From: Polytrichum commune | Lineage: Eukaryota > Streptophyta > Polytrichopsida > Polytrichales > Polytrichaceae | NCBI GenBank assembly: GCA_950295325.1 | Contig: OX485804.1 | Span: 62,714,533 to 62,778,532 of the forward strand | DNA: 64,000 nucleotides | Direction: 5' to 3' | Shown: piece by piece, positions 15,862 through 60,207 of the stretch | How positions within the stretch are numbered: the stretch's first letter is position 1 | Layout of the letters: every line of letters starts with the position of its first letter | The notes under the pieces: model-generated | Databases searched by the model: none | What the model was told of the DNA's origin: nothing | The model's input: the letters and a program-made list of their open reading frames with translations, nothing else | Translations under genes and position numbers: made by a program

Positions 15862-15908
15862 TTAAAAATGAGTATGTGGGCACGCCAAAAAAATGAAAAC
15901 CAACGAAC

Positions 15909-17313: not shown

Positions 17314-17318
17314 GGCCA

Positions 17319-18087
17319 CTACAAGAGAGCCAAATGAAGAATGAGATAAAATATAAGCAGTGTATGTTTACGGACGCCCGTCCGCAAATCATTATCTGAT
17401 AAGAGATGTCAGGGTTAGGCGCAAACGTCTTGGCAAATTAGACAATGTATGTTTACGGACGCCCGTCCGTAAACATCCCTATGTCAAATGACAATTGTGT
17501 CCAAAACAAATAGGGTTGCAAGGAACCAAGAAGTCCCAGCCCCATTTACATTTACACTAAATTTTACCTCCTGGCCTTACCAGTAATGTATTTGAATGTG
17601 TACCAACGGTTTGTCTGTTTACGGACGCGCGTCCGTAAACATACCTTTACCTCATTACTAAACATATGCAAGAGGTTTGTAGGTTTACGGACGCGCGTCC
17701 GAAAACCTACCTTTACCTCATTACTAGAACAGATGCAAAAGGTTCAAGATTTATGGACGCGCGTCCGTAAATATTCATCAGAACAAATATGCATACTATC
17801 AAAACAGATAATAATTCACAGCCCACATTGTAGATGACATACCACCATGTGACACCAAAAGGATGCATGTTTACGGACGCGCGTCCGTAAACCTACTTGT
17901 AAATGCTCAATGAGCCAATGAAAATAGATTGAGATACTCAATGATGCAACGAGCCACTGAGAGATTCAATAAGATATGAGATATTCAATAAGCAAATAAG
18001 TCAAGAGATGTAATGTTTACGGACGCGCGTCCGTAAAGTTCCGTAATTTGCGGCGTCATAATAGGACACTTGAAGCGTGAACAATAC
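17319..18087 (-). repeat. Element A palindrome array, inferred 5'-UTR intron of the transposase-like gene
   Basis: Seven copies of TTTACGGACG-NN-CGTCCGTAAA (or one-base variants) start at 17367, 17452, 17618, 17684, 17750, 17870 and 18016. On the minus strand the region is bounded by a candidate donor CAG|GTATTG at 18088/18087 and acceptor TTGTAG at 17319, just before the ATG. Element B has the same arrangement, with GTTCACGCT just inside both donors. A second candidate donor (GCAG|GTATAG, 18184/18183) and an acceptor at 18121 could define a 33-nt UTR exon (18120-18088). Confidence 0.75.
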
Positions 18088-18189
18088 CTGTCAGAAATAG
18101 AATCCATCGCATTCAGAGATCTAGATAGTGCAAATCGAATATGGGTTTAGGATATAATAGGTTCATTGCAATAGGATCTATACCTGCGC

Positions 18190-21100
18190 GAAACAAGTAT
18201 CCACCACACTACAAGGGTCTCAAGAGCGCAACCCACATCTGAGATGCAAAAAAAGTCCCTTGGTGGGGGGATTTCCCTTAAGTACTCGTCGTCTTCCCTT
18301 GGATCCTTTCTTCAGCATAGGATACTAGCCGCCAACTCTTTCCTAAAAACAAAAACCTAATATTCCAACATAGAGAATGCCAGCCTTGCAATGGAATGTG
18401 TATTCATGGCGGCCAACATGCATTTGACCATGACTCCACATAATGACAAAGCAAAAGGCATCTATATATTTATGGTGTACAACAAAGCAAGTTGGTTAAT
18501 ATTATATGAGCAATAAACATTGTTGAGGGGGGGTTTATATTATTGGAGTACCCAATATTAAGAGTTCATTGTAGAATTTGTGGACAAAAAATTATAGAAT
18601 CGTATAAAAAATCAACCACCACAACAACATTTGTAGTCCATGGACTATAAAAATATATGTGCTTCGGAAATAATCTAGCAACTATTTAATTGTTTTGCAT
18701 ACAATCTTATGATATTAGAATATCATGTTCTCTCCTCTCATCTTGCATTTAATATTGTAATACAATCGGCCACCACCCTACCATCCAACCCTTTTAATTT
18801 CCCCACCTACACATAATATTATTAATACATACAGAAACTTTGATTTCCGTGAGGCCATGAAAGTAGAACATCTATGGACCTAGGTAGGGTTTAGGGTTTG
18901 GTGGGTTTAGGGTTTAGAGTTTGGTTGCAAGCATTCTTAGTTATTGAACAACACCAATTATTTTGCAAGATGGAGTAAGTGGTGAAAAAGTATATGACAT
19001 TGAACAAATATTCATGAAACTGTCAATAACAATTCTAATTGCCATGTACAAAATCTTCATTTGGTATCCTTTAATGAGAGCCATAAAACTTGGGTTGTGT
19101 AACCCTAACTTTCATTTTTTTTAATCTTACTTTTTTTGGGTGAAATGTACCCCTTACATGCAAGTAAAAGATTTAGCCGGGACTTGTTATCCTTTGATAT
19201 GACCCCAAGTTTAAAATGAAATGAAGGGATACAAATATGAAAACAATTAAGGCTTCAAAACATTGAAGATCATTATAATATTTATGTTCCAAGCCGGCTT
19301 TAGCCATTTGCTCTTAACATATACTTTGATGAAAGGTTTTGAAGATCTTATATATTAATTGGTATTCTTTAATGGAGTACTTAACACATCAATCCATGTC
19401 ACCATGGAAACAAAACTCTAGAATAAAAAACAGTTTGCTACTACTTGATGTAGGTGATATACAAGTTTGTGGAAGGATTCAATGAATCCCGATGGTTGTT
19501 TAATGTACAAGAGGGATGTAAATTCAATACATACCCTTGCGTGCACTTTTAATACAAGCTTACTAGACCTATGTTCAAAGGGATTGAATTAATTCGTAAT
19601 GTTGTGCAAGATAATATTATAGGCATATGACTTCAACCCTATTAGATGGTATGAAATAAGAGCTTATAACTCCAAACAAATACAAACATTTTCAAGAACT
19701 CTTGACACAAGATTCCAAAGAGTGTAGTTGGATTGACATCCTCCACTACCTCATTTTATCATTAAAACTCTCAAATGAGAGGCAAGCAATTTGGCCTCAT
19801 GATTACAAGAAGTAGGGTAGTTAAATGCTCACCCTAGGTTCTAGACTTGCATTCATGCTAAACCCCTTAAACCCTAAACCCTCAACCCATAGTATTATGT
19901 CGTTCTTCTCAAAATATGGTGAAATTTCTTCCAAGCCTCGCACTTCGAGGTTATGTTATTGATACCGGCTTAGGATGACCTCAAGTAACGGACGAGAGTT
20001 ATGTCCTCCAAGAATTAAAGAGATTAACATGCAAATTCATCCAAACCGAACATGAATGTCATTATTGTTCACCCTCTTTAGTATGACAAGTGTGAGAAAC
20101 ACAAAAATGTCATGTTATCTAGGTGTCGTCTTCTCATTCATATGACAAGTGGCGTAAAGTTGTCATATTATTGAGGGAATACGAAATTATCATAATAAAA
20201 ATGAGCGCAAAGATATATATACAACAAGTTTAATAGGCAATATAGATGATATGAAATAAGAGCTAATAACTCCAAACAAATACAAATATTTTCAAAGACT
20301 CTTGATAGAGGAGTCCAAAGAGTGGCATATGTCGATGTTTGTATTTACAAAATGCTTAATCTTTAAAAAAAAATTATTGATGTAATTTAATTGTGGACAA
20401 TGATATACTATCATACAATAAATAGTTGTAGCATATCATAATTTGTAATAATAAGCGATAGTTAGTGTACTAGTCATTTAAAGTCCACTTACCTTCATAT
20501 TGCAACAACTCCACAAAAAAATGTTACACTTGAGTTACTCAACCTCATATTGTCCTATAGTTTCAATACCGAAAACTTCCCTAGGCTTATCATTGTGAAC
20601 TTAATAAACATTAGGATTTGTATTGTAGAATGGGTTTGGTTAGGGTATTAATAAATAAAAGGTGACTAATATGACTCCAGGTCATGCATCTTCACCTTAT
20701 GTTAGTTGGGCTTTGTCATAAATATGATGCTACATTGAAGGACTAATATCAAACAATCTATCATGTGGAGTTATGAAGTAATATGGTGTGAGTTGGGTTA
20801 GCACCATAGTCGGTTGGCAGAACAACAATTCCCAAATAAACCTACGAATGAAAATGTGAAATATATAAATATTTATGTCGACATGGAAAAAATGAAATAA
20901 GGGTGATATTTAGGTTTCAGACCAAGAGTCTGCCACTATTTAATGAAAATAAGGATTTCAAGAGATTATTTTAAACAAAGACTATATTCGAGTACAAGGT
21001 GCAGAACCCAATTGTCACTGGTGCTATGTTTTTACAATTTGTATCTTACATGCTATGTTACTACCATGTCCCTTCTCCTTTTGTCATTGTTAAATTTTAA

Positions 21101-21789
21101 TCATATAATTAATGGTACACATTATATGTCACTTCCACTTATTACCATTAATAGTTGAAATTTAGTGTTTGAGTTCACAGTTAAAAGTACCTTACTTTCA
21201 TAGGGTTAGTGATATTTAGTGTAATTGGATGTTGCGACTGGATGATGGTGACATGTCAACTAATACTTATATGCATATGATATTGAGCAAGAAATGCGTA
21301 TAATGGTTGTTGAGTTGGTGGATGCCGTTTTGGGAATCAATAATGCAGAAGGCTTTGATTTTAATGTTAATTTGCATTTGGTTCATTTGGATGATGTTTT
21401 TTCACGTACAATATTAAAGCGTCAACGTTATGCATCATTGTTGTCTAATTTTTTATTAGACAATTTGTTTCACTTAGGTAGGCAACACTAGACTCAGATC
21501 ACTGAACTCTTATTTCAATAATTATTGAGAACGCTTGTATTTGTTTGAAGTTATACGTTATTATTTCATACAATATATATAATAATTGCTTACATCCGTT
21601 GTGTGTGTTTTGAAGCTCATATTTCTTTTGTTTTTTTATTTGCTCAATAGTACGACAATTTTACAGCGTTTGTCATATTAACGAGAAGACAACATGTCGA
21701 TAATACGACATTTTTTGTGATTTCCAAACGTGTCTTACTAAAGAGGGAGAGGTGTGCCACATACCTCTCCAATATGAACCTATAGGGTT
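18190..21789. other. Central non-coding region of element A
   Basis: No gene recognised. The region is AT-rich and holds short telomere-like GGGTTTAGGGTTT tracts near 18890-18925 and CCCTAAACCCT near 19862-19885, plus a diverged duplication (about 19630-19725 and 20235-20330, sharing AACTCCAAACAAATACAAA). It separates the divergent promoters of the two element genes. Open frames at 20943-21158 and 21294-21491 have no recognisable content. Confidence 0.55.
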
Positions 21790-22835
21790 CTGCCACGTGG
21801 CGATGGGGTGCAGGGTGGATGGGACGTTGGGAGTCGGGGCGTTTGGGGGGCTCCTCTTGAGTACTTAAGGGTTTTAGGATTTCATTCGCCCATTTTCACC
21901 CTCTCATTTCTCCGCCTCCCCTCTCTCGCTCTCCTTCCTCACATTCTTCTCACGCTCCTCTCTTGCTTCTCTAGGGTTTGTTGTTGTCACCCTAAACCCT
22001 CTCCTCCCCGCGTTCCTCTTGTTGTTGGCGCTTCTCTCCGCGCTCCTCTCCTCTTGCTGTTGGCATTCCTCTTGCTCTCCTCTTGCTCTCCTCTTGCTGT
22101 TGGCGCTCCTCTTGCTCTCCGCGCTCCTCTCCTCTCCGCGCTCCTCTTGCTGGTGGCGTTGGTCCTCTTGCTGTTGGCGCTCCTGGTCACCTCACAAGGT
22201 TGTTTGTTGTTTGTGTTTGTGTTTGTTCTTGTGCTTGCTGGTTTGCTTTGCTTTGCTTTGTGCTTGTGCTTTGCTTTGCTTTTGCTTTGCTTTGCTTTTG
22301 CTTTGCTTTGCTTTGCTTGTGTTTTCTTGGCTTGTACTTTACTTTGCTTTGCATTGCTTGTGCTTGTTGGTTGTGCTTGCTTGTGTTTTGTTGTGCTGGC
22401 TTGGTTGCTTGTTTGATTGCTGGCCTCTTGCATAATGACATAGGTTGCTTGTTTGATTGTGTTTTAGTTAATTTCTTGCTTTGACTTGCTTGTTTAATTG
22501 TTTGATTGCCTGCTGCTTGTGTCATTGTTTGTGCTTGCTAGCTGGTTGTGCTTGCTTGTGATTGTTTTTTAATCTTTTGTTTATGTGCTTGCTTGTGATT
22601 GCTTTTTCTCTCTTTTGCTTGTGTGCTTGCTTGCTTACAGTTGTTTGATTTGCTTGTGCTTGCTGCTTTGCTTTGCTTTGCTTGCTGGCGTGGTTGCTTG
22701 TTTACTTGCTGGCCTCTTGCATAAGTACATAGATTGCTTGTTTGATTGTGTTTTAGTTTATTTCTTGCTTTTTTACTTGCTGGTTTGATTGTTTGATTGC
22801 TTGGTTTTTTTTGTTCTTTGCTGGTTTGCTTGTAT
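21790..22835 (+). promoter_or_regulatory. Probable promoter/leader of element A's second gene; CT- and TG-rich low complexity
   Basis: CCACGTGG (21793-21800) is followed by a CT-rich tract (21895-22180) like a plant 5' leader, then TTGCTTTGCTTTG-type repeats. A segment of about 285 bp (with TTGCTGGCCTCTTGCATAA) is duplicated at 22405 and 22690. Long open frames on both strands here (leucine/serine-rich plus, lysine/glutamine-rich minus) are products of the low-complexity sequence. A donor for the 5'-UTR intron could be CTCACAAG|GTTG at 22198/22199; I am not sure of it. Confidence 0.4.
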
Positions 22836-22917
22836 TTTGCATCATATACAAAACCACCTTCTTGAAAATCTGGAACCCTCTCAACAAGGACCAGATTAAC
22901 CAATGTAGGGCTTGAAG

Positions 22918-23494
22918 TTTACGGACGCGCGTCCGTAAACTTTGACGCACCAGGTGGGTGAAGCATGCAACATATATCCAGAACTTACGGACGCGCGTCC
23001 ATAAGTTCTGGATATATTTAAAAAACAATATTATTACTAATGGACAGTATATTTTCCTAGTTTACGGACGCGCGTCCGTAAACTAGTGACATCCAAGTAA
23101 ACCCCACTCCTAGTTTACGGACGCGCGTCCGTAAACTAGTGACACCCGAGGAAACCCCATTCCTAGTTTACGGACGCGCGTCCGTAAACTAGTGACATCC
23201 AAGTAAACCCCATTCCTAGTTTCCGGACGCACGTCCGTAAATTAATGCTAACCCCGTAAACCCAACTACTAGTTTGAGGACGTGCGTTCGTAAACTAGAA
23301 CTATCTTATTAAATCTCATCTTTGTTCATAGTTGAGATTCTCATCCCCAACTACCCGTTGATAGTTTACGGACGCGCGTCCGTAAACTACATGTGAAATT
23401 TCGTATTGACATATGCAAAATCTTTTCGGATAGTTCATTCTGACATTATAATTCAAAACAACCTGTGGAAAGTTTACGGACGTGCGTCCGTAAA
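22918..23494. repeat. Element A palindrome array upstream of the ParB-like gene (5'-UTR intron)
   Basis: Nine copies start at 22918, 22984, 23061, 23114, 23167, 23220, 23273, 23365 and 23473. Five of them (23061-23294) repeat at exactly 53 bp with shared spacers. The centre is usually CG, with TG and CA variants. Several copies have complementary flanks beyond the core, the longest a 46-bp palindrome at 22972-23017 with one mismatch. The array ends 46 bp before the ATG at 23540, which directly follows a TTTGCAG acceptor. Confidence 0.9.
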
Positions 23495-23539
23495 CTTGAC
23501 ATTGATCATAATGCTAAGCATTGTTTTTTGCATTTGCAG

Positions 23540-24829
23540 ATGGCATCTACAAAAAGACCTGCAATTGACCAGACATTTGAGTTTCTTCCGCCTCCACTTC
23601 CACCCGCCATCAAAGATATAAGCCACAACGATCACTACAAGCCAGTCGAAGACACAGTAGACAACTGGACAATTTACGTAGAGAAACTTGATAATGACAC
23701 ATTCGTACTTAGATTTGGGTATCAAATGAATACCAAAGATATAGATGTAGATAAATGGGTTAGAGTTAAAAATTGGTCAGTAGAGTGTGCAGTGGCCCAA
23801 GGTGACTATGTCGTCATAGATCTTGAAAAACAAGATGACAGAGTCACAATTCTTCTTCATGAGTACAAATATCCATTCCACAAGGCTGAATGCGAAAATG
23901 GCAGCCCGGAAGCGGGTTGCTTCAATCTGGCAACTGAATTCCAAGACTATGCATGCAATGCACCTTGGACGGGTAAGCGGCTTGGAAGACTCCTCAACAA
24001 TGTCACGAGAGTGAATGGGGCAGTCCTGGAGTCCAGAAAGGGGAAAATGAAGAAGAAAGTCGTTTCTGAACGACAACCGCATGTTCCACAGACAGTCCCG
24101 GAAGGATCAAGACCGTCCCAAAGTGGAGCATCGAGAGGGAGCAGACCATCCAGTAAACGCTCCCATTCACAGATGGAGTCATCTGGACTTACCGAAGGTC
24201 CAGATGTCAGCTCCACCCTTACTGTCGCACCACTTCTGAAGAAAAGAGAACGCCCGAACTCTGATCTATCAACAAAAATTCAACAAAAGTTGGACGAAAA
24301 AACGAAAGCCTGCTGGCCAATGGGCAGGTATTTCACATTTGACGTGGATGTTTATAAATGCCACCAGGGCACCGAGAGTATGAATACTAGGGTGCAAGAA
24401 GAGAGCGGGGTCTGGTGGCAGATGAACAACATCATGAACAACCCGAAAGCTGACCGGCAGACCATATGTGTGACCCCAAAGGATCCAATCGTGGAGGTCA
24501 CACCAGAACATTGGCCAATTATTAAGCAAGGGGAATTCTACATCGTGGACGCCCAGAATAGCGTGGAAGCTGCAAAAGCTCTCCTCGCAGACGATAATTG
24601 GAAGAGCCCTCTGAAACCCACAATCTGATATTGGAAAGCACTTCTCGTGCATTCAGAGGACTCCAATCAGCTCATCGCCATATCTGCCTTCCTCAACCAG
24701 ACAAACAAAATCAAAGCGTTTGAGGCGTCATGGGCAGCCAACATCGTGGCTGGTAGGACCTTGTGGGAGGAGCACGGCTGTCCACCAAAAGAGAGGGACA
24801 ACGCAGTCGTCAAGAATCCCAAATGGCAG
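23540..24829 (+). CDS. Element A second gene, exon 1: unknown N-terminus plus ParB/DGQHR-like domain
   Basis: 430 codons from ATG 23540, placed directly after a splice acceptor. Residues 1-170 are a conserved domain of unknown function. Residues 180-270 are a basic, serine-rich linker. From about 290 there is GRYFTFDVDVYKC, then GEFYIVDAQNSVEAAKAL with D337. This matches the IDGQHRLEAA signature of ParB-like and DndB/DGQHR proteins; B has the closer IDGQHSVEASK. A helical segment follows (AISAFLNQTNK, SWAANIVAGRTLWEEHG, CPPKERDN). TGA at 24626-24628 interrupts the frame just before WKALLV and corresponds to a lysine codon in B. The donor is CAG|GTAATA. Confidence 0.7.
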
Positions 24830-24847
24830 GTAATATTCCCAAATGAA

Positions 24848-24970
24848 TTTACGGACGCGCGTCCGTAAATTCTCCTTCATTCTTTCTGTGCTCCAAATTT
24901 ACGGACGCGCGTCCGTAAACTTTCCCTTTATTCTTTGTGTGCTCCAAGTTTACGGACACGCGTCTGTAAA
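24848..24970. repeat. Three palindromes in intron 2 of element A's second gene
   Basis: Copies at 24848-24869, 24898-24919 and 24949-24970, about 50 bp apart with shared spacers (CTTTCTGTGCTCCAA, CTTTGTGTGCTCCAA). The first has complementary flanks GAA/TTC. The third has decayed CpGs (ACACG, GTCTG). All lie between donor 24830 and acceptor 25034. Confidence 0.9.
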
Positions 24971-25034
24971 CTAGACTGTTCTCATTCTATTTTTTGATCT
25001 CATTTCAACAACTCATTTGTTTCTCTACTTGCAG

Positions 25035-26354
25035 GCATTCAGCAGTGCGATTGTGACGAAGTTCTTAAGCATTGACATGAAGCAAAGCGGCATGAAGACA
25101 GTGCAAGATCTGAAGGGCGAACTGAAGCTCATCACTTCGTCGGGTAGGACCTGGGCTATCTGGATGCGTGTCTTCCATGCACACAGCAACGGAGAACTCA
25201 TCAACCTTGAGACGGAGAAGAAGTACAAAGAGGACCTGAAGATTAAGGTGCCTCCAATCCTCAGAGAGTTCTTCCGTCCCCTCCAAGGGTTGCTCGATGC
25301 CGAGCTTTACAAGGCGGCAGAACACCTTCTTAAGGAGACTCCGAGAAGGACAGCGCCGTATCCCAAAATCTTCCTCAAACGACCAAGGTTTATGAAGCCT
25401 TCAACATACCATATTAAGGAATGGTGCGAATACAGGAAGAAGAAGACATTGGCTATGAGGGAGATAGGCAAATTGGTACCCGCCTACAACCTTACAGATG
25501 CAGATGGTGACATTGTGTGGGACAACTGGAGGGGATTGAAAATAGCATACCACATCAATGGCGTCTCAATGAAGGCATTGATAAGAGCAGCATCTCCGTT
25601 CTTGGCCCAGCGCTCAAGGAAGAACGAGAAGAAAGGTTCTATCGACGAAAGGGAGACAACTTTGTATAAACACTTCCTCGATAGAAAGAAGAATGCCAAA
25701 TTCGAGGGTGTCGCGAGGTTTTGCGCTGTGACATCACAATTCAAGTTCGGCAAGTGGGACACCCATGCTTCGCGGGCCACTGTGAGAGATGACCCCCGGG
25801 GTTGTCCTTTTGCTATCTTTGATTTCCGTGCATTTCCAAATTCTTGGAAACAACCTCCTCCAGGGACCCCTTTCTACGACAGCTTCCTGAAAGCTTTCAA
25901 GAGCTTTCGGTCCCCTGCACTTCTGGAGCCAAACGTGTGGCTGTGGATTGTGGACCAAGAGAGATCCGCGGCGGTCGTCGACCTATACAACTCGACGATG
26001 GATCTCGAATACAATATCTTCCACAGCACATACGTCCCCGCGAAGACGGAAGGCATCGCCGTCATCGAAGAAGCAAGGGGGGTAAAGCAGGTCGGCGCTA
26101 TATGTCTCTATTTCTTGACACGGAAGTCTTCGCCAAGTGGGCGTTTGCCTGTAAAGGCGAAGAGCGTGTTCAAGAAAATTTACCAGTTGCCGCCTCCACA
26201 CCCCAAGGAGCTAATGGACGAGGCGATGTTCGCAATCTGCCCGGCAACCGAGCTCCGAATGGACTTTTACATAGGAGTATTGAAGGCTGTGACTGTGATG
26301 AGTGAGACAGTGTACAACGTCTTCGGGGGGACCAAATTTGTTTATGCGGCATTG
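25035..26354 (+). CDS. Element A second gene, exon 2: methyltransferase-like region
   Basis: 440 codons without a stop, residues 431-870. The second half resembles a beta-type DNA N4/N6 amino-methyltransferase in order: CPFAIFDFRAFPNSW at the place of a DPPY motif (D693), a strand after a loop (PNVWLWIVDQERSA), IFHSTYVPAK, a strand with ICLYFLTRKS, and, across the exon 2/3 junction, NVFGGTKFVYAAL|MLG, like the F-G-G-S-G-T AdoMet-binding loop. Known enzymes need D/N/S-P-P-Y/W/F, and DFRAFP does not meet this, so catalysis is doubtful. This is fold-level pattern recognition; the assignment is tentative. Confidence 0.55.
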
Positions 26355-26396
26355 GTAAGTACTTAAAAAAACTTTCATGCCTCCACCTGATGCAAC

Positions 26397-26547
26397 TTTA
26401 CGGCCGCGCAACTGTAAAGTTTAACCACCTAGTTCATTTCAACTTTGCGGCTGCGCTACAGTGCATATTTATGGCCGCGCGGCCGTAAAGTTATCAAACC
26501 TAACCCAGTGTGCATTTTACGGACACACGTCCGTAAAATGCACACTG
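26397..26547. repeat. Palindromes in intron 3 of element A's second gene, including a GGCCG variant
   Basis: Degenerate copy at 26397-26418; a variant with TTTATGGCCG-CG-CGGCCGTAAA at 26468-26489; and a core copy at 26516-26537 whose flanks extend it to a 42-bp perfect palindrome (26506-26547, 19-bp arms beginning CAGTGTGCATTTTACGGAC around ACAC). A relic with TTTGCGGCTGCGC lies at 26443. Confidence 0.8.
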
Positions 26548-26626
26548 CATCATGTTTGTATGTCCATCTTCCCCGTCAATTCAATCTTGATACCAACAAT
26601 CCACTAACTTTTTTTATTTGGTGCAG

Positions 26627-28015: not shown

Positions 28016-28043
28016 GTAATCAACCTTTGAGCATGCCTCTCTC

Positions 28044-28065
28044 TTTACGGACGCGCGTCCGTAAG
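28044..28065. repeat. Palindrome in intron 4 of element A's second gene
   Basis: A single copy (TTTACGGACG-CG-CGTCCGTAAG) starts 28 bp after the donor at 28016. Element B has a single copy 22 bp after the equivalent donor (60186). Confidence 0.9.
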
Positions 28066-28360
28066 TTCCCAGTCAGCCAGCTTTCGTGGCGTGTGCATAT
28101 TTTCGAGTTCGAATCTCGACTTCGCCCGCGGCGGCGGATCCAATTTTGCTAGTGTAGGCTCAATTAATCTTAGGAGAGACCTTTAGTGACAATGTAAATT
28201 ATTCGCGAAATGTATATCACCAAACACATTAATACAATTTTTTGAACTGGATAGTTCTTCGGATACTTGTTGCCTCGCATTTCTTTGTTGCGTTTTTGCA
28301 TGCTTGTCATTTGGTTTTCCTGGGTAGTGCCATTCACCTAGGTAGTATGTGCCATCACAG

Positions 28361-29122: not shown

Positions 29123-29221
29123 GTATGAGAACTTTGATACTTTTTGGCTCCGTACTTGGACTCTCCATGTTTATATCTAACATTTCTCTCCTTATTTTGT
29201 AAATGTATTTTTGTGCCTTAG

Positions 29222-45974: not shown

Positions 45975-46002
45975 AACACTATATTCGTTAAATTGAGACT
46001 TT
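45971..46002 (+). repeat. Element B left TSD and TIR
   Basis: ACAT at 45971-45974, TIR 45975-46002. An inner AGTCTC at about 46009 makes an inverted repeat with GAGACT inside the TIR, as in element A. Two direct repeats containing GGTAGAGCACTC lie farther in, near 46130 and 46174. Confidence 0.9.
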
Positions 46003-47992: not shown

Positions 47993-48130
47993 CTGCAAAG
48001 GCAACCCAATGGTTTAATATTCAACTATAACACCAAAAAATTCACATGGTGTACATGTATGGCCCCAAGTACAAACCTAAACGCACAAATTTGTGTTTAG
48101 GTAATGCAATGCAATTGTTATCAAAATCAC

Positions 48131-49574: not shown

Positions 49575-49579
49575 TGTGC

Positions 49580-50928: not shown

Positions 50929-51017
50929 CTCGAAGTACAGCTCCGACTAAGAGTTCTCTCTACGAATTCAGGAGTGGGAGAAGAGCAAAAAAGAACCAAC
51001 TTTTGGGGGGTGCGCCC

Positions 51018-51024
51018 CTTTATA
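51018..51024 (-). promoter_or_regulatory. Candidate TATA box for element B's transposase-like gene
   Basis: TATAAAG on the minus strand, preceded by GGATAG, about 90 bp upstream of the proposed 5'-UTR donor at 50929. This would give a first exon of about 60 nt. Position and sequence fit a plant Pol II promoter. Confidence 0.45.
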
Positions 51025-51039
51025 CTATCCACCTCCACT

Positions 51040-53450
51040 TGCCCGACTTCCTCATTGGATGCCTTTCCCGCCTTCTTATTTCAAACCTCCTGACAGAATT
51101 CCCCGTTTTCTGTTTATTGTAGAAAATGCGCATCTTTCAATGCCCCTCTCATACCCCAGCCGTCATATGTCTTAGTCTATGATATTTAATTTTTTTTTGG
51201 TTTTGTGTGTATATGACATACGACATTGGGAGGAAGGGTGGCGGCCACATTAATTTTTTCAAGTGTCACAACGGTATATTTTAACCAATATGTATACCCA
51301 ACCACAACTCCATTCAATGCTTTCAAGTGCAAACCTATTTAGGTGGGGTTGGGGCCATTTGGAGGTTGCAATTATGAGAGAGTTTCCAAGGCTTGAGGCC
51401 ATTGTCATGATGAATAAAATTATTTATTTGTCTCCCCTAAACCCTAAACCCTAGAACATTGCGGCTCTGTTATCTCGCATGGAAGTGTGGCAATGATAAA
51501 CGTATGTGGACGTTGTTAAGGGGATATTAACTAGCAATGTCGCTTTTTGGTTCAATCTTTTAATGTTATTTCAATCCATCCTCAAGTTCACTTCAAGTTT
51601 ACTAATGTGTGTGACCAAAACATCCAAAGTTGGACCCTAAACCCTTATAACATCCACAACATGAAATACGTATTGACAAAATACAAAACCAATTAGTATA
51701 TCATGTTTAAACGTCCCAAATAACATATTAACATGATCAAGATTGTATTTACTATAACCTTCCTATTAGACTCTTCTTCATATTATGCAAACAATATCTG
51801 TTATATCTTTCTCCATTATCCAATACATGTGGAGGGAACAATGAATAAGAACATGATTGCGTGAATGGCTTCATTTGATGTTGTGCTTCTCTTATTTACT
51901 TTTGCATCACATTCCATATATTAAATACATCATGAACCATGGTTTATTGGCGACTATGTGATTCCCTAAAGTGAGCAAAACATCCAAAGTTGAACCCCTT
52001 ACCCCTAATAACATCCACAACATTTCATGTTATTTGAATAAACACAAGACCATTCACTATATCACGTTTAAACGTCCGTAATAACAAATAAACATAATCA
52101 AGATCGTCTTTTCTATTACCTTCCAGTAAAAACCTATTCTCACCAGTAAGTCAATGTTATATGTTAATATTGGATAGATTAATATGTTATAAACCTAACT
52201 CCTAAACCCTAAACCCTAAACCCTAAATACAAAAATTCGTAGTTGTTCACTGCTACCTCCACATACAAACAACATGAACTTTATCTTGCGCCATTATGTA
52301 ATATACGTGGAGGGAACATTCAATAACAACATGATTGCGTCAAAGGGCTTCATTTGATGTTGTGGTTCTCCGATTTACTTTTATATCACATTCGAAGTAC
52401 ATATATCACGATCCATGGTTTATTGGCGACTATGTGATTCATTCAAGTGAGTATGTAAGGGATTTACTAAAAACTTGAGCATGTTAGCATTTCGACATAA
52501 GGATCATGCAATTCCAAACCCTGAGAAAATGCTCTTGGGGAAGGTATACATTTAGCAAACACATTCAAATATCCTAAATTTCCGAATTTCATGTTGGGGG
52601 ACGGGGGTTATATTTTTTATTCATTGCATATTGTGTGAGTTCTTGGCATCATTGGTAAAGTCTAAATGTCAACGATTACATCGTTAAATGTCACGCAATT
52701 GTATTATTTTTCTAACTTGCTCAAACAAAAGAGAAACCAATGATTTCAACTTGTTTGGGAAATTTAGGTTATGGTGTCATGTGAGTAGGGGTTAAGTCTT
52801 AGTTTTAGCATAACGTTGCGTTGTAAAAATGCATTAGTTGTATAAATGGTTTCATTTTGTAGAATACCGCATTTGATGTGCACCTTATGGGGCATTCCCA
52901 CTTGACATTAGTTAGAAGTAGTATTAGTCTAAATGCGGTTTTAGTTATCTAGGTTTCACACATATGGCTCTTTTTAGTGCCGAGCCTAGGTGGCAAATGA
53001 TGTGGCATGGCTTAAAAGTGGAGGTTTTAAGCCTCAACCACCGACGCTCCCATCGGTACCTAAACATTAGGCAAGAATATAGGAATTTTAAAAGTGTCGC
53101 CTCCCACCCTTGTGATTGGTTGCTTTTTAGTCTTAGCTATGAGGGCACGAGGAGCTTCATTAACAAAAACCGATGGTAAGATAGGTGAGTAGTAAGGCAT
53201 TTGGGGATGGGACAAAAACTACCCAACATTCATTGCTTGGTAGATAAAACCATGAACATGTGTGAAAGCTACTTAACTAAAACCTACTTGAAAATCTCCG
53301 GAGCAAGTTCTTGTAGGTGCATTGGGATAGTTGGATGCCTCCGCTATAACCGAGGGAGCTTTACCCGGTCTTTATAAAATAGTGAGGGTCTTAACTAAAG
53401 TCAAGTGGGAATGCCCCATTAGGGTACTCCAAAGTGTCTTGAAAATACTA
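51040..53450. other. Central non-coding region of element B
   Basis: No gene recognised. Telomere-like CCCTAAA units occur at 51437-51453 and 52198-52228. A diverged tandem duplication covers about 51600-52450: ACATGATTGCGT occurs at 51852 and 52331, and GTTTAAACGTCC at 51706 and 52067. It is structurally equivalent to 18190-21789 in element A. Confidence 0.6.
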
Positions 53451-54530
53451 ATGCCCGCTAAGGGTTTACAGTTTGGCTTTAGGATTTAGGGTTCCCCGTA
53501 ATCCTAATTCCGTTGGTGCCCTAATCCCGTTGGCACCCTATTCGTGCGGTTGGGGGCCAATTCCCGAGGCATACAAAACCCCAGCCGTCACAACTTTTCG
53601 CTCTTTCTCTCTCTCTCCGCGCCAAGCATTCGCTCCGCGCCTCTTGTGGAAGCGCCGCCTCTCCTGAAGCGCCGCTTTCGCGAAGCGCCGTGGCGATTCA
53701 GGGTGGCGATTTTCTTCTCTTCCCTCCCTTCTTGTTGCTTTGGCGCCTACTGATTCTTCTCCTTCCCTCCCTTCTCTTGCTGTAGAAGTTAGGAAGTGTT
53801 TGCAATAGAACAGAAACCTAAGGAGAGAGTTTTAGAGTGCGTGAGAGTTAGTAGAGTGATTGTTGTAGAGTGAAGTAAGTAGAAGATTGTTGAAGGGTTT
53901 TCCAACATTCTAAGCTTGCGGGTTTTGGAGGCTGTATTGTAGTTGGAGAGTTTGTGAGATTTAGGAGTTCTATAAGATAATCAGGAGGTGTTTGAGAGAT
54001 ACAAAAGTCATTTGAGAGAGTCAGTCATTGTTTTGAGAGATTCACTTGTTCTTAGGGATTCAGAGGTTGTTTGAAACACTCAATTGTTGTTTGAGAGATA
54101 CAAAAGTCATTTGAGAGAGTCAGTCATTGTTTTGAGAGATTCACTTGTTCTTAGGGATTCAGAGGTTGTTTGAAACACTCAATTGTTGTTTGAGAGATAC
54201 AAAAGTCATTTGAGAGAGTCAGTCATTGTTTTGAGAGATTCACTTGTTCTTAGGGATTCAGAGGTTGTTTGAAACACTCAATTGTTGTTTGAGAGATATC
54301 TAAGTCATTTGAGAGAGTCAGTTATTGTTTTGAGAGATTCACTTGTTCTTAGAGATTCAGAGGTTGTTTGAAGTATTGAATTGTTGTTTGAGAGATTCAA
54401 AAGAGATCTAGGAGTTGTATGAGAGATTGTGGATTTGTGTGAGAGGTTACATTCAACTGTTTCTGTGTTATTGGAAGAAGAACACCTGTTCTAAAGCAAT
54501 TGTTTACAACAACTGCTACATACAACAAAG
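53451..54530 (+). promoter_or_regulatory. Probable promoter and long 5' leader of element B's second gene
   Basis: TATAAA occurs at 53373-53378 and a CT-rich tract (TCTTTCTCTCTCTCTCCGCG) at about 53600, similar to the leader of element A. The leader then has four 99-bp tandem units (from 53991) and ends at a good donor, AAAG|GTATTTTC (54530/54531), followed by the palindrome-bearing intron. The start site is unknown. Confidence 0.45.
53991..54420. repeat. 99-bp tandem repeats in the leader of element B's second gene
   Basis: Units beginning TTTGAGAGAT start at 53991, 54090, 54189 and 54288, with a partial unit at 54387. They differ by a few bases. All frames contain stops (TGA, TAG), so the block is non-coding. 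Confidence 0.9.
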
Positions 54531-55362
54531 GTATTTTCTTTTATTATATGCAATAAGTGTTTGTCAATTGAAGGTATTGTAGCATACACAACGCATAAGC
54601 ATTGTATATGCTACGTGCCAACTTTTAAAAATTACATTAAAATAGGAAAGTTTGGGGAGACGACCCAAACACGGCCACAGGTTTGGGTCGGTCGACCCAA
54701 ACACAGCCTCTTGTTTGGGTCGACCGACCCAAACACAGTCTCTTGTTTGGGTCGACCGACCCAAACACAAAACAAAGCATCATGTTTGGGCCGAACGACC
54801 CAAACACAGCCTCTTGTTTGGGTCGACCGACCCAAACACAGCCTCTTGTTTGGGTCGACCGACCCAAACACAGCCTCTTGTTTGGGTCGACCGACCCAAA
54901 CACAGCCTCTTGTTTGGGTCGACCGACCCAAACACAAAACAAAGCATCATGTTTGGGCCGAACGACCCAAACACAGCCTCTTGTTTGGGTCGACCGACCC
55001 AAACACAGCCTCTTGTTTGGGTCGACCGACCCAAACACAAAACAAAGCATCATGTTTGGGCCGAACGACCCAAACAACGTCTTCTAATTATAAACTCATA
55101 AAGAAATCCATGATTTTTGCATCAATATAAAATTCACATCCACTAAAAAATAATAATCAAGGAATGTATCAAGGAAAAGTATCAAGTAATCCTGCATGTC
55201 ACAAACAATATAAAATACAAATCCACCCAATAATCAAAACATTCTTATTATCAATACAAATGATGCTGAAATATATAAATATACAATCCACCTAAACCTA
55301 TTCATGTCGTAGATGTTTGGGTCGAACGACCGAAACTAACATTGCACATTATTTTCTTACAG
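54531..55362 (+). repeat. Element B palindrome array in the 5'-UTR intron of the second gene
   Basis: Thirteen copies start at 54650, 54681, 54713, 54745, 54784, 54816, 54848, 54880, 54912, 54951, 54983, 55015 and 55054, and one more at 55315. Periods are 32 bp (spacer ACAGCCTCTT) or 39 bp (spacer with AAAACAAAGCATCAT). Three copies have the variant GTTTGGGCCG-AA-CGACCCAAAC. The intron runs from donor 54531 to acceptor TTCTTACAG at 55362, directly before the ATG. Open frames on all strands reading WVDRPKH or GRSTQT here are only translations of the repeats. Confidence 0.9.
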
Positions 55363-56688
55363 ATGGCTCCAAAGAAAAGACCCGGCGAAAGGTGGTTCAT
55401 GCCTGCGCCGGACATGTTGTGGCAGGAGCACAAAACCCCGCAGGATGACTCCTATTCCCCTAAGGACGGGCTTGTCCTCGCGTGGTCTATACAAGTGGTT
55501 AAGGGTTCGCAATACAAAATGATTTTTGTTGTGAAGGTTGGGACCGTGGAGAAGCACACATGGGCTACTCTTACGGGGTGGGACGTGGCATCGGTTCAGT
55601 CTCTTGGAGACTACGTGGATGTCATCCTCGAGAACAACGCTGTCCAGAACGCGCATATGTTTATGCACCAGTTCTCCGAACCCTTTGACGCTATCTATGC
55701 AAAAGAAACATGTGTAGAACCAGACGTCATCAAACCGGAGTCCATATTCATCGATAACAGTACATCGAACACAAAGGTGTCGAGCAGATTCACGAAACTA
55801 AAGCATGCAATCAGCGTGCTCAACAAAGCCCTGCAGAGCAAAACCAAGTCTTAGCAACCCGTGAGGCGGAAAGCAACCACAGAGGAAGGAGCAGGGTCGT
55901 CAAGACCTTAATCGGTGAGGAAGCCGCGACCAGTACCGGCTGACTCGCGGAGGACCACTCCCTCCCAAACACCTGCGGATAGCGAGACGCCTACACCTTC
56001 TGGGAGCCGTCAAACAACTCCATCCAAGAGGGGGAGAGAGTCATCTGTGATGACTGACGAGCCAGTCTCACCGGAGTTGCGCATGCCGAAGCCCGGCGAA
56101 GAGGTGGATGCAGGGGAGCTGCAGAAAATCGTGAACAATTTCACGACGAAATGCTCCCACTGTTTTTTCATGGGCAGGGATTTTAAGTTCGACGTGAACA
56201 TCAGCCAGTGCCATCTAGCGCCACCGGAGAAGTGTGTCCGGGCAAAGGAGGACGCCTACGTTGACTGGATAATCGTGCAGATCGTTTGCGAGCAGTTTAA
56301 AGACGACATGCAAACGATAGTAGTGATGCCACAGGGTCTCAAGAAAATGCCTACACCTGAAATGTGGCCCACAATTCAGAAGGGCAATTTTTGGCTCATA
56401 GACGGCCAGCACAGCGTGGAGGCATCCAAGAAAATCCAACTCATGAATGAGTGGGATGATCCGAACAATCAGAAGGAAAAGCTGAAGGTTTGGAAGGCAC
56501 TAGTGGTGTGGTCTGACGACGAGACCAAGCTCAGCGACATCTCCCGGTACTTCAATATGGGAAATAAGAAGAGGGCCTACCAAGCTTCCTGGATAAGGAA
56601 TATCATGGCCTCGCGGGAGGTGTGGGAGTTCTATGGTAGGCCTCCCAAGGAGAGGGAGAATGCGAAGGACAAGAATCCCAAATGGGAG
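55363..56688 (+). CDS. Element B second gene, exon 1: unknown N-terminus plus ParB/DGQHR-like domain
   Basis: 442 codons. Starts MAPKKRPGERWF; element A's copy starts MASTKRPAIDQTF. After a Ser/Thr/Pro-rich basic linker (with the stops at 55852 and 55909) come FFMGRDFKFDVNISQC, MPTPEMWPTIQKGNFWLIDGQHSVEAS (D347) and ISRYFNMGNKKRAYQASWIRN. IDGQH is the ParB/DndB-like signature and is better preserved here than in A (VDAQN). YFNMGNKKR resembles the conserved Asn/Lys-rich segment that follows DGQHR in DndB-type proteins. Donor GAG|GTGAGT. Confidence 0.7.
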
Positions 56689-56697
56689 GTGAGTATT

Positions 56698-56992
56698 GTT
56701 TAGGTCGACCGACCCAAACTCCTGATGCAGCCTTGTTTATTTAGTTTGGGTTGACCGACCCAAACTCCTGATGCAGCCTTGTTTATTTAGTTTGGGTCGA
56801 CCGACCCAAACTCCTGATGCAGCCTTGTTTATTTAGTTTGGGTCGACCGACCCAAACTCCTGATGCAGCTAGTTTATTTAGTTTGGGTCGACCGACCCAA
56901 ACTCCTGATGCAGCTAGTTTATTTAGTTTGGGTCGACCGACCCAAACTCCTGATGCAGCTAGTTTATTTAGTTTGGGTCGATCGACCCAAAC
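56698..56992. repeat. Seven palindromes in intron 2 of element B's second gene
   Basis: Copies start at 56698, 56744, 56790, 56836, 56881, 56926 and 56971, with periods of 45-46 bp and a shared spacer (TCCTGATGCAGC, then TAGTTTATTTA or TTGTTTATTTA). The last copy has an AT centre, the others AC. The intron runs from 56689 to 57082. Confidence 0.95.
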
Positions 56993-57082
56993 TGTTGTTG
57001 CAGATGTTGGTCATGATATGGGTTGGAAATCACATGTACATATCTAACACGCATTCAAATGTTCTGTTTTGTGGACGTGCAG

Positions 57083-58414
57083 GATTTCAAATACCAAATG
57101 ATCAACAAATTCTCCTCCATTGATAATTCGAGCCACAAGCAGAAGAAATACAGCGACCTCAAGGGGGAGATTTACTTGATTACAGCATCTGACTCAGTTT
57201 GGAGGAAGTGGAAAACCGTGTTTGAAAAGCACGAGACGGGGGATTTGATCGACCCCGACACTGGCATTTTCTTCAGCCAAACCTCGCGCTTCAAGCAGAT
57301 GAAGCCTCTCGTGAGAGAGTTCTTTAGAACTCTTCAAGGGCTGTCAGAGACGGAGGTGGAGAAGGCGGCATCTCACATCCTGCACGTGGCACCCACGGCG
57401 AAAAGGTGTTGGGTGCACCCGAAGATTGTCTTCCAAAAGCCCAAATCCTTCGTTCCTTCATGCTACACCATGAAGGAATGGACGGATAACAGGAAAAAAA
57501 AGACGACTATCGTGTAGGAGCTGCATAAACTAGTGCCAGAGAGGAATATTGTCGTGGACGGCGAGGTCCATGAGGCTAACTGGAGAGCATTCAAAGCTGA
57601 ATATAAGTTCACCAGTGCCTCCATGGCGGCTCTAATAAGGGAAGCGGGGGACGACTTCTTGCGGGCCAAGATGGTGAAGGGTGGGAAGAACCGGGCGCTT
57701 CCGGATCACACAGCGCGTGCGTTCTCGAACTTCATCAAGGAGAAGAAGATTGTCCAGTTTGAAGGGGAAGCGTACTTCAACCTTGTCACCGCCGACCCGT
57801 TGAAAATTCAGGGCTGGCCAGGTCAAGACGCCAGAATGGCGATAAGGACGAAAGCAAGGGACCGCTTTCCTTTTGGGATGATTGATTTCAGGAATATTCC
57901 TGGAAGCTCATTTGAGGGCACGATGAGCACCCTCTTCTATGACCCCTTCCTATCTAAGTTCGTCGATTATGCAAGCCCTAAGTTCAGGGAGGTAGATATC
58001 TGGCTTTGGATAGTCGAGGATAGGAGGGCGGAGCAGGTGTACGAGCTTGTCCGGAAACTGCAGCCGGAGTATGCAGTCTCCAAGTCTCATTACATCGCCG
58101 CACCGGCGGAGGGAACTTACACGACGTTGAGGGACAAGAAGACCAAGTTCATCAACGTCTTGTGTTTGTACTTCGTGTACAAAGCGGAGTTGCTGAAGGT
58201 GCCGAACCACCCTATATCCCGGATGGACAAACTCTTCCAAGTTCCAGAAGGGTTGGGTGCCAACAAGTGCCTCTACGACGAGGCTAAATACGCGAACTAT
58301 CCTTTAGATGAGCTGCGGATGGAATTTTACGTGAGAATGATGAGGACGCTGACGAGGAGAGGGGATTGCATCTTCAACGTCTTCGGAGGCTCTAAACCTA
58401 TCTATGCTGCCATG
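57083..58414 (+). CDS. Element B second gene, exon 2: methyltransferase-like region
   Basis: 444 codons with TAG at 57515-57517, after which the same frame resumes (ELHKLVPERN, matching EIGKLVPAYN in A). FGMIDFRNIPGSS (D710) occupies the DPPY position, followed by DIWLWIVEDRRAEQV, VSKSHYIAAPAEG, VLCLYFVYKAE and, at the end, NVFGGSKPIYAAM. The order of a catalytic-like segment first and a glycine loop last is that of beta-type amino-methyltransferases. The catalytic consensus is missing in both elements. Call made by motif layout only. Confidence 0.5.
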
Positions 58415-58442
58415 GTAAGCGACTTTCTATAACTCGTGCGCA

Positions 58443-58608
58443 GTTTGGGTCGATCGACCCAAACTAGGCTCTGTGTTGGTTTGGGTCGATCGACCCAAAC
58501 TAGGCTCTTTGTTGGTTTGGGTCGATCGACCCAAACTAGTCTCTTTGTTGGTTTGGGTCGATCGACCCAAACTAGGCTCTTTGTTGGTTTGGGTCGATCG
58601 ACCCAAAC
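58443..58608. repeat. Five palindromes in intron 3 of element B's second gene
   Basis: Copies start at 58443, 58479, 58515, 58551 and 58587, an exact 36-bp period with spacer TAGGCTCTTTGTTG. All have the AT centre and so are fully palindromic. The intron runs from 58415 to 58678. Confidence 0.95.
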
Positions 58609-58678
58609 TACACATTGTACTTGGTCTTGTTTATGTCCCTCGCCTAATTCTAATGTCTATATAACTTGGATTGTGTAG

Positions 58679-60163
58679 ATGTCGGGGCTGAGTATATACT
58701 CCTACATAGAGGATGGCGATCTGCCATTTTACAGGACGCAGAGATCGTTGGCGAAGAAGATGGACATCCTCGATTGGATCCCGGGTAGCTACGTCGACGA
58801 GGTTGTTCAGGGGGGCGAAAACCCTCTTGATAGGGTGAGGCGGATCAACCCGGAAGAAATGGCCATGAGGGCCACAACCCAAGAACCCGAACCTCTTGTC
58901 GGGTTGCATCTGGGCAATCCGTCCCGCACAGAAGGTGGCGATGTCGAGGAGGAGGAGGAAGAAGAGGAGCACGAGGAGGCGGAGAAGGAAGGCGACGTGG
59001 AGGAAGGGGCAACGGGCTTCACGCAAGAATCCGAAGCCCCTCAACGGAAGAAGGCGATGCGGGCGGCAACCCCACAGAGTAAGCTCGTGCCCGTCCTGAC
59101 GGTGGACGATGCACGGGACATGTACTCCAGGGACGCGACCGCCACGTTCAGGGAGAGGAGGAAGATGAAGGGGAAGAAGCTGTATGGCGACTACTCCGTG
59201 GAGGAGACCATTGCCATAAGCAGCGAGGACGACGATGACATTGAGCTCGCCAAACGGCTAAGATCAGATCCCCGGTCCCCGACAGCGTTCGATGGCATGG
59301 TTAGGGTGAAGCCCGAGGTCCTGACTGTGGAGGAGGCGAACGAGAAGATGAGGAGGGACGAGGAGCAGCGAGTTCGCCTGCAGAAGGCTGCCGCGGAAGA
59401 ACCCTCAATGCGGAACGAGGTAGCAGAGCTAAGGGCTCTCCTGTTGGAGCAGGAACGACAGAGGGCGATGGCCCAACCTCCGTCCCACGCCGAATTGATA
59501 TCACAAGTGATACAAGGAATGTGGGCGCAAGGTTTGGTGGTGGCTCCCTCCAGCTCCTTCCCGCACTTGCCCCCCGGCTTCCCTCCGCAGAGCATCCCTC
59601 AGCAGCCTGTGCCGCAATCGTCTTTCAGCTTCCAGCACTTGATTCGGCCCCACCAAGTTCCGTACGCGCCGGTCCAGCAAGTGGATGACCCCAACATCTG
59701 GCGCGTCTCTGGAGCCTCCTCCCCTTTGGGCCCTCCACCACTTCGGCCCCCGATAGTCATGGCGCCCCCTCACCAATCGGACGACCCCAGGATGTTTGGG
59801 TCGACCGACCCAAACCCACCATCCACTGGAGTGTCCGAAGGGCCCTCTCCAGATGCAGGACAGTTTGGGTCGCCCGACCCAAACCCCGTTGCAGCGCAGT
59901 CCTCCCTTGACCAACATGGGTGTCAACTAGACACGGCCATGCTAGATGTTGAAGGCTTGCAAGGGCCTGGTGATACCTCTACTCCTAACCAAATCGATGA
60001 ACCCATGCATGATGCAAATGCGGAGATTGGTTTAGGACAAGGGCCTGATGCCGATCGTTTGCAGGAGAAGGTTCCTGACGTCGTCGGAGAAGGCGGTGGC
60101 GAGAGAGGCGGGGCAGCGGGGACGGTGGAGGCTTCCACATCGTCGAGACATGACCAGGGCGAG
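58679..60163 (+). CDS. Element B second gene, exon 3: acidic, coiled-coil and proline-rich region
   Basis: 495 codons without a stop. MSGLSIYSYIEDGD completes the glycine-loop region, and LAKKMDILDWIPG parallels element A. Then follow a Glu-rich acidic run, a second acidic patch (ISSEDDDDIELAKRL), a charged helix (VEEANEKMRRDEEQRVRLQ), a proline- and glutamine-rich region and two in-frame palindromes (FGSTDPNP, FGSPDPNP). Donor GAG|GTAATA as in element A. Confidence 0.65.
59794..59884. repeat. Two exonic in-frame element B palindromes
   Basis: 59794-59815 (centre AC) encodes FGSTDPNP, and 59863-59884 (centre CC) encodes FGSPDPNP. They lie 69 bp apart, a multiple of three, in the low-complexity end of exon 3. 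This is the same region that holds element A's exonic copy. Confidence 0.95.
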
Positions 60164-60185
60164 GTAATACACTGAGCCCTCCCCA

Positions 60186-60207
60186 GTTTGGGTCGACCGA
60201 CCCAAAC
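60186..60207. repeat. Palindrome in intron 4 of element B's second gene
   Basis: A single copy (centre AC) 22 bp past the donor at 60164. The rest of the intron (to 60659) holds C-rich low-complexity DNA and a C tract near 60430, with no gene. Confidence 0.95.

Follow-up and report, generated by a model that had tools for sequence, protein, structure and literature searches.

Family-specific 22-bp palindromes diverge together with a ParB/methyltransferase-like protein in DNA transposons of Polytrichum commune

A stretch of 64,000 nucleotides of the Polytrichum commune genome (assembly GCA_950295325.1, contig OX485804.1, positions 62,714,533 to 62,778,532; hereafter the window, with positions counted from its first letter) contains two DNA transposons, element A (13567..30427, 16,861 bp) and element B (45975..62933, 16,959 bp; no strand assigned to either), each of which carries its own set of 22-bp palindromes built of two 10-bp arms around a 2-bp centre (10-2-10). 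Both elements encode a DUF7869-type transposase on the minus strand and, on the plus strand, a second gene (gene 2) that starts with a ParB-like exon followed by a methyltransferase-like exon. The A and B palindromes are unrelated in sequence, at least ten motif types coexist in the genome, and motif and ParB-like exon diverge together. The palindromes probably serve as self-recognition sites of the gene 2 protein, which would bind them in dimeric form and so regulate its own element or protect it from silencing. A brown-algal Sola1 transposon with a ParB-methyltransferase gene is already published (PMC12477816, available parts of the text); the palindrome code and its co-divergence with the ParB/methyltransferase-like protein appear to be new.

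Palindromes of elements A and B

With up to 3 mismatches allowed, 23 sites of the A motif occur in the window, all within 17367-28065, and 43 of the B motif, all within 49775-60207. An earlier note on this DNA, made from its letters alone, had counted about 24 and 44 sites, which are real but one too many for each element at this threshold. No match to either motif was found in 100 dinucleotide shuffles. Up to 5 mismatches, 26 A sites and 49 B sites are found, each confined to its own element, with none elsewhere in the window and none for a control with the arm letters reversed; the absence of each motif from the other element and from flanking DNA, also claimed in the earlier note, is thus confirmed. 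The note was equally right about unrelated sequences with 10-bp arms: the arms of A and B carry 1.3-2 bits per position, and conservation is lost within three bases outside them: in B the very next base has no more than 0.3 bits, and in A this level is reached past two more bases (0.6 and 1.0 bits). The supposedly variable 2-bp centre is indeed free in B and in family C, but it is biased in A (CG, CA or TG in 76 of 80 distinct sites), D (AA or TT in 41 of 43) and F4 (AT in 20 of 20).

The sites lie at the same six places in both elements, namely upstream of the transposase, in the gene 2 leader, in the introns after the ParB-like exon and after exon 2, in exon 3 and in the intron after exon 3 (7, 9, 3, 2, 1 and 1 sites in A; 15, 13, 7, 5, 2 and 1 in B), which bears out the shared placement in leaders, introns and exon 3 that had been described before.

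Palindrome sites outside coding sequence (no strand assigned):
17367..18037, A, upstream of the transposase, 7 sites
22918..23494, A, gene 2 leader, 9 sites
24848..24970, A, intron after the ParB-like exon, 3 sites
26468..26537, A, intron after exon 2, 2 sites and a weaker one at 26397
28044..28065, A, intron after exon 3, 1 site
49775..50749, B, upstream of the transposase, 15 sites
54681..55336, B, gene 2 leader, 13 sites
56698..56992, B, intron after the ParB-like exon, 7 sites
58443..58608, B, intron after exon 2, 5 sites
60186..60207, B, intron after exon 3, 1 site
62022..62771, B, beside the right end, weaker variants at 62022, 62436, 62561, 62661 and 62750

The coding introns are of the GT-AG type, and the leader introns of A and B are predicted ones; the gene 2 leader of A is probably an intron because AG directly precedes the ATG at 23540. 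In exon 3 of B, the palindromes within the coding sequence appear as FGSTDPN peptides. Many sites fall in tandem arrays, and the motif is also kept by single sites outside arrays and within coding exons. The strong sites of A and B are all internal, at least 2.3 kb from either end. In addition to the five weaker variants of B near its right end, which are unchanged in the copies L070 and L072, a further one is found near the left end, at 46166; these variants are perhaps a second class of sites used in transposition. A role of the palindromes as RNA hairpins was rejected, as a 2-nt loop is too small.

Motif families in the genome

The 408-Mb genome has seven large contigs of 42-78 Mb, and its telomere-like AACCCTA units and a plant-like Gypsy reading frame, recognised by eye, fit a land plant such as a moss. 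Searches of it with ParB-like exons gave 933-956 first-look candidates when the query came from A, B or C and 804 when it came from D, with 150 scored per query. Forty-three exon loci, hand-picked to span identity classes and thus non-random, were analysed: 40 fetched over the identity range, the two window copies (Awin and Bwin) and one D element (S1). A 10-2-10 set is present in 41 of the 43, and 38 of these 41 have sites on either side of the matched exon stretch, upstream of it and in the intron that follows. L044 and L045 have upstream sites only, L054, with a motif defined from two sites, has intron sites only, and in some F copies (e.g. L048) the upstream sites are near the matched stretch and may not be in a leader. 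Inside the matched exon stretch no palindrome site was found in any of the 43 loci, and clusters of two or more sites were absent from all 430 shuffled loci and from nine non-element 3-kb pieces of the window.

Motif arms:
A, also in A' (70-81% identical to A): TTTACGGACG
C: TTTACGAACG
B: GTTTGGGTCG
D1: CCCACGGGTG
D2: CCCACGGGCG
F: GTTCCTC(T/G)CG, CTTCCTCTCG, (C/G)TTCCACTCG, CTTTCACTCG and GATCCACTCG

Across the genome, the A, B and C motifs have 1147, 9231 and 2909 exact copies, a degenerate pattern covering part of F has 551 matches and a joint D1 and D2 pattern 853, the reversed-pattern control giving 0 for every motif counted. The palindrome set that the earlier note had assigned to each element is therefore self-specific within the window and is really a property of the family. 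Several motifs differ by one-base-per-arm steps, as do TTTACGGACG and TTTACGAACG, CCCACGGGCG and CCCACGGGTG, and the series CTTCCTCTCG, CTTCCACTCG and CTTTCACTCG.

Similar sets accompany more distant relatives. Clusters of CCCACGGG(T/C)G are found in six of seven short stretches upstream of D-type transposases. In the far-diverged group E, with 37% identity to B in the DUF7869 stretch, the motif GGGTGAGGCA-NN-TGCCTCACCC, adjoining arrays of the imperfect form GGGTGGGGCA, occurs in four of eight loci (L022, L027, L028 and L032). Another locus, L026, shows no palindrome cluster, though a match to an E-type ParB exon lies at its edge. D1 and B share 28% identity in exon 2 and have unrelated motifs, yet their sites are at equivalent gene positions: in S1 (D1), whose introns are deduced from reading frames and whose gene 2 is located further upstream, 7 sites precede exon 1 of gene 2, 1 lies in the intron after exon 1 and 1 beyond exon 2, while the transposase has 5 upstream and 1 in an intron, with extra weaker sites at 3 and 5 mismatches. 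In exon 3 of the D2 copy L043, repeated PHGRSPVG peptides correspond, by eye, to palindromes in coding sequence.

Co-divergence of motif and ParB-like exon

Motif distance follows ParB-exon distance, with a Spearman Mantel rho of 0.77 (p 0.001) over 40 of the 43 loci, L057 (99 aa) and the motif-less L006 and L010 being omitted. This supports the co-evolution of a DNA-binding protein and its site that the earlier note had suggested. By subset, rho is 0.84 for A, B and C together, 0.87 for A and C and 0.52 within F, all with p 0.001. Of 176 pairs with less than 30% protein divergence, 76 share the same motif, and of the 604 pairs above 30% none does, so that no palindrome is shared between very different ParB-like proteins. 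On a maximum-likelihood tree of 42 rows (without L057, and with L006 and L010 labelled 'none'), the motif labels require 14 changes, the minimum possible being 13 and the shuffled mean 30.5, and none of 200 shuffles was as low. Near-copies inflate both the Mantel and the tree tests, and some deep joins of the tree are of the long-branch kind.

Changes of the motif affect both arms. Arm position 7 is symmetric in 129 of 137 A and C sites (A: 76 GG, 6 AA and 8 hybrids; C: 47 AA), and in family D the two arms agree at the T/C position in 48 of the first 50 sites listed. The outermost arm base seems loose, because L049 and L050 have identical ParB exons with either C or G there.

Constraint on protein and sites

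The ratio of nonsynonymous to synonymous divergence (dN/dS) between A and A' is 0.10 in the ParB exon and 0.15 in exon 2, and in exon 2 of B, C and F pairs it is 0.05-0.08; purifying selection, with dN/dS of 0.05-0.15, is thus seen in the five of nine exon comparisons where it is measurable. For the ParB exon, synonymous distance has reached saturation in four of five pairs, all except A and A'. Four-fold degenerate sites were compared in 18 hand-picked pairs, which include same-motif pairs at identities of 0.49-0.99. In nine of them (among L011-L015, L016-L020 and L042-L061), a four-fold identity of 0.20-0.42 goes with an amino-acid identity of 0.80-0.96, which indicates that synonymous sites are near saturation and that the ParB-like exon is very strongly constrained.

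The motif is the same despite a four-fold identity of 0.42 or less in six of the 18 pairs (Bwin-L017 0.42, Bwin-L019 0.41, L011-L013 0.35, L012-L014 0.33, L017-L018 0.30 and L043-L045 0.29). Since the sites are kept while synonymous positions are near random, either selection or constant conversion to one sequence must be acting on them. Pairs with a changed motif have identities of 0.37 (S1-L043), 0.32 (L046-L049), 0.20 (L049-L051) and 0.98 (L046-L055).

Structure of gene 2

In both A and B, exons 1-4 of gene 2 join in frame across GT-AG introns. As a result, the NIF/FCP1-like phosphatase domain of exon 4 is probably in the same protein as the ParB-like exon, and the product is likely a three-module protein with ParB-like, methyltransferase-like and NIF/FCP1-like parts, as judged from these reading frames.

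Gene 2 features (all on the plus strand):
23540..24829, A exon 1, ParB-like box VDAQNSVEAA, premature stop at 24626-24628
24830-25034, A intron after the ParB-like exon, GT-AG
25035..26354, A exon 2, methyltransferase-like, with DFRAFP and NVFGGTK
26627..28015, A exon 3, one palindrome in coding sequence at 27932
28361..29122, A exon 4, NIF/FCP1-like phosphatase domain (PF03031, E 1.9e-13), in frame with exon 3, predicted donor at its end
55363..56688, B exon 1, ParB-like box LIDGQHSVEA, premature stops at 55852-55854 and 55909-55911
56689-57082, B intron after the ParB-like exon, GT-AG
57083..58414, B exon 2, methyltransferase-like, with DFRNIP and NVFGGSK, premature stop at 57515-57517
58415-58678, B intron after exon 2, GT-AG
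58679..60163, B exon 3, palindromes in coding sequence at 59794 and 59863
60164-60659, B intron after exon 3, GT-AG
60660..61472, B exon 4, NIF/FCP1-like (PF03031, E 3.9e-14), acceptor in frame with exon 3, stop at 61472, no clear donor, 3' end uncertain

Other copies of exon 1 keep an open frame in both families: of the best 150 matches scored with the B ParB exon, the matched stretch is free of stops in 127 and interrupted in 23. The NIF part contains DLNGVL, in which Asn presumably replaces the usual second Asp.

Relatives of gene 2

The box (D/N)GQH(S/T) of gene 2 resembles those of ParB, DGQHR and GmrSD_N proteins (GmrSD_N E 0.08, DGQHR E 0.5). Pfam searches with the ParB-like exons gave scattered matches, the best with E 0.08-0.13 and in one member each, and a PHROG ParB-like partition profile matched three of nine members (E 0.014-0.1). 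In the genome, the same profile has six matches at E up to 10: two on C23, one each on C12 and C10, and two on the seven large contigs, at C7:4184022 and C5:30505991 (E 0.49 and 0.78), both of them inside ParB-like exon matches. C12 and C23 are small, bacterial-looking contigs with bacterial or phage ParB genes, and are probable contaminants.

C12:28600-30400, L075, ParB_N and N6_N4_Mtase fusion by Pfam
C23:8600-10500, L074, bacterial or phage ParB gene

A 'ParB-like partition protein' of a Desulfofustis phage (L079) matches over 97% of L075; further relatives of L075 were found in viral contigs (three, two of them used) and in a phage collection (129 records, eight fetched), and none in the genome_contigs set. 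Comparison of an 11-protein phage/bacterial profile with a 9-row gene 2 profile gave its best match at the motif I end of the methylase (E 0.0034; reversed controls 0.44 and 0.76) and its second, in the right order, at the ParB boxes (E 0.35, weak against the same controls). Profile searches of PDB gave nothing meaningful, tblastn of the C-family ParB exon against phages found nothing, and a scan of viral contigs with exon 1 of A and B found no relative. The N6/N4 methyltransferase hallmarks DPPY (motif IV) and FxGxG (motif I) are not seen in 10 aligned exon-2 sequences: in place of the DPPY and PFAGSGAT of L075, these have D(F/T)R..P and (F/C)GG.K, or CGRNK in D2, motif I being paired by the profile-profile alignment and motif IV by eye. 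Descent of gene 2 from ParB-methyltransferase fusions appears likely.

Discussion

The site, its placement, its self-specificity, its co-divergence with the protein, the symmetric change of the arms and the strong constraint on sites and protein are seen directly. From these we infer gene 2 as the binder, together with its domain ancestry, dimeric binding and an anti-silencing or activating outcome. A gene 2 homodimer would read the two 10-bp half-sites over the 2-bp centre, docking at the arrays that cluster in the leaders and introns of the two genes; once bound, it would mark the element or open it over its full length, allowing both genes to be transcribed despite host silencing, and the response would be limited to elements with the same motif. 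As the specificity of the protein drifts, all sites of the lineage would be replaced by a new palindrome through array turnover and conversion, and motif and protein would diverge together for this reason. A stronger version, in which each family's own palindromes are loading sites for a ParB-type dimer that then slides along the whole element as a clamp and shields it from silencing, with at least ten exclusive dialects as lock-and-key pairs of protein and site, is a distinctly tentative extension.

Several observations weigh against recognition of the palindromes by the gene 2 protein. Because the transposase gene and gene 2 are inherited as a unit, co-divergence by itself does not tell which of the two proteins binds, and the variant sites beside the right end of B would also suit direct participation in transposition. 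The gene 2 copies of the window are both interrupted, with one premature stop in exons 1-4 of A and three in B. Recognisable palindrome sets are missing from a minority of relatives, a result that the earlier note had named as counter-evidence: L006 and L010 of the 43 loci, four of seven 6.3-kb stretches by far-diverged DUF7869 genes (L026, L029, L030 and L031) and one short stretch by a D-type transposase (L038). The correlation within D alone (rho 0.57, p 0.22, 5 loci) is non-significant, and A-family copies hold some C-type sites, the 6 AA and 8 hybrid ones of 90. As for the domains, Pfam found no ParB_N (PF02195) in nine ParB-like exons and no PF01555 in seven exon-2 sequences, the HHalign probability of the methylase match is 9.5% and the ParB box taken alone has E 0.35; AlphaFold2 models of the ParB-like exon and exon 2, from two-row alignments, had mean predicted local distance difference test (pLDDT) scores of 36 and 38 and were not used.

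An alternative binder is the DUF7869 transposase, or gene 2 acting on the ends in the manner of TNPA in Spm/CACTA; the palindromes would then help to assemble the ends for transposition. This would also account for the co-divergence, given that both genes travel together, and is favoured by the weaker B variants, which lie up to about 0.9 kb from the right end, where they are unchanged in two other copies, and in one case 0.2 kb from the left. This explanation is unlikely in view of the internal position of all strong sites and the way in which arrays cluster in leaders and introns of the two genes; moreover, the terminal inverted repeats of A and B agree at 25 of 28 bases (counted by eye) though the palindromes are unrelated, so that the end recogniser need not have changed. 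That gene 2 is an active N6/N4 methyltransferase marking its own palindromes as self is quite unlikely: the order of the ParB-like and (weakly matched) methyltransferase-like parts and the proposal that the Ectocarpus protein binds and modifies its own transposon (PMC12477816, available parts) speak for it, while catalysis is doubtful because DPPY and PFAGSGAT are replaced by degenerate motifs in all 10 aligned copies.

If the elements had adopted binding sites of host transcription factors or insulators as their promoters and enhancers, the position of the palindromes in leaders and introns of the two genes would fit. One host factor would, however, give one motif, and here the motif differs by family and follows the element's own protein, with neither motif in the window outside its own element at up to 5 mismatches, which makes such an origin very unlikely. 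Finally, the many sites in tandem arrays could be seen as functionless by-products of slippage and gene conversion, a most improbable account given that single sites outside arrays and in coding exons keep the motif, that bases neighbouring the arms of A and B are near-random, and that the motif is kept across near-random synonymous sites in the six pairs listed above.

The proposed recognition by a dimeric gene 2 protein has parallels in several known systems. In bacterial ParB/parS and KorB/OB, a protein with a ParB-type box acts on clustered palindromic sites; gene 2 has a ParB-like box, and the palindromes here are likewise clustered, but are 22 bp long with a 2-bp centre. The TNPA protein of Spm/CACTA is an element-encoded DNA-binding protein with many short 12-bp sites that also acts on methylation; its sites are subterminal, whereas the strong sites of A and B are internal. 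Phage and bacterial ParB_N and N6_N4_Mtase fusions (L075 and L079) resemble gene 2 in the order of the matched parts and in the profile match; the catalytic motifs of L075 are intact, and gene 2 has very low sequence identity to these fusions and domains unseen by Pfam. VANDAL elements, which are of the Mutator type, come closest in the anatomy of their sites. According to the available parts of the relevant papers, the VANC21 motifs of Arabidopsis VANDAL21 occupy tandem repeats, introns and the region upstream of VANA, each VANC protein is active on the family that encodes it (PMC5735166), and the VANC proteins of VANDAL21 and VANDAL6 resemble the present system in being element-encoded, with self-specific short motifs arrayed in introns and other non-coding parts, tandem-repeat turnover and motifs that differ between related families (PMC5735166, PMC10398659). 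The VANC motifs are 8-9 bp long and non-palindromic as printed there, in contrast to the 22-bp palindromes described here, and VANC proteins have DUF1985/DUF287 domains, whereas the present elements combine a DUF7869 transposase with a ParB/methyltransferase-like gene 2. Pfam found neither DUF1985 nor DUF287 in exons 1-4 of A, in the ParB exon and exons 2 and 4 of B, or in nine ParB-like and seven exon-2 sequences. The A/B system shares the self-specific motif arrays in non-coding parts and, as far as anatomy tells, may work like VANC, without being a VANDAL.

Sola1-1_Ec32 is a 21.5-kb Ectocarpus Sola-1 transposon with an opposite-strand 1104-aa protein that joins a ParB-like part to a methyltransferase (PMC12477816, available parts). 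It is likewise a giant DNA transposon with an accessory gene opposite the transposase and a combination of ParB-like and N4/N6-methyltransferase domains, which in gene 2 are weak matches (E 0.35 and E 0.0034); the present elements differ in their degenerate-looking methylase motifs, the added NIF phosphatase-like exon and the palindrome sets described here, the string 'palindrom' being absent from the main text of the Ectocarpus study. In the open-access literature searched, no title or abstract opening among the matches listed describes palindromes that are specific to their own element and diverge together with a transposon protein, VANC being nearest.

The families provide a natural series of protein-site pairs in many copies of one genome, each family as if with its own lock and key for self-recognition. 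The one-base-per-arm steps between motifs make a shift of DNA-binding specificity, with a joint shift of all sites of an element, directly testable. The system points to a separate origin of VANC-like self-specific recognition, in an unrelated transposon that uses bacterial-type modules, and the palindromes are a candidate target type for the algal ParB-methyltransferase transposon proteins.

Ends and other features of the elements

Element A is bounded by identical 28-bp terminal inverted repeats (AACACTATATTCGTTATTTGGAGACTTT) and a 4-bp target-site duplication, ATTG, at 13563-13566 and 30428-30431, and element B by 28-bp inverted repeats and the 4-bp duplication ACAT at 45971-45974 and 62934-62937. 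The repeats of both elements start with AACACTATATTCG, and the right end of B is reproduced to the same base in L070 and L072, with different flanks.

14211..17313, minus, A transposase gene, open reading frames, ends approximate
~15256-15495, minus, DUF7869 domain in the A transposase (Pfam PF25273, E 9.4e-34)
46519..49574, minus, B transposase gene, open reading frames, end approximate

The B transposase was assigned without Pfam, by the segment GHTHDDIDASFGRWSMKL that it shares by eye with the A transposase; a paper search for DUF7869 returned no literature. CACTA/Spm elements have CACTA ends and a 3-bp duplication, and the ends found here instead read AACACTA with 4-bp duplications. The Sola1 superfamily has 4-bp target-site duplications, a length that ATTG and ACAT fit, and elements of the A/B type may be Sola1-type transposons.

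Between A and B, direct repeats at 31867-35385 and 42588-45974, 10.5-10.7 kb apart and 85-96% identical in the listed pieces, represent another duplicated or mobile unit. At 7098-7889, a 198-bp tandem repeat is present in four copies, 93% alike, with long overlapping reading frames on both strands, and at 53989-54403, between the two genes of B, lies a palindrome-free 99-bp tandem repeat of 4.2 copies.

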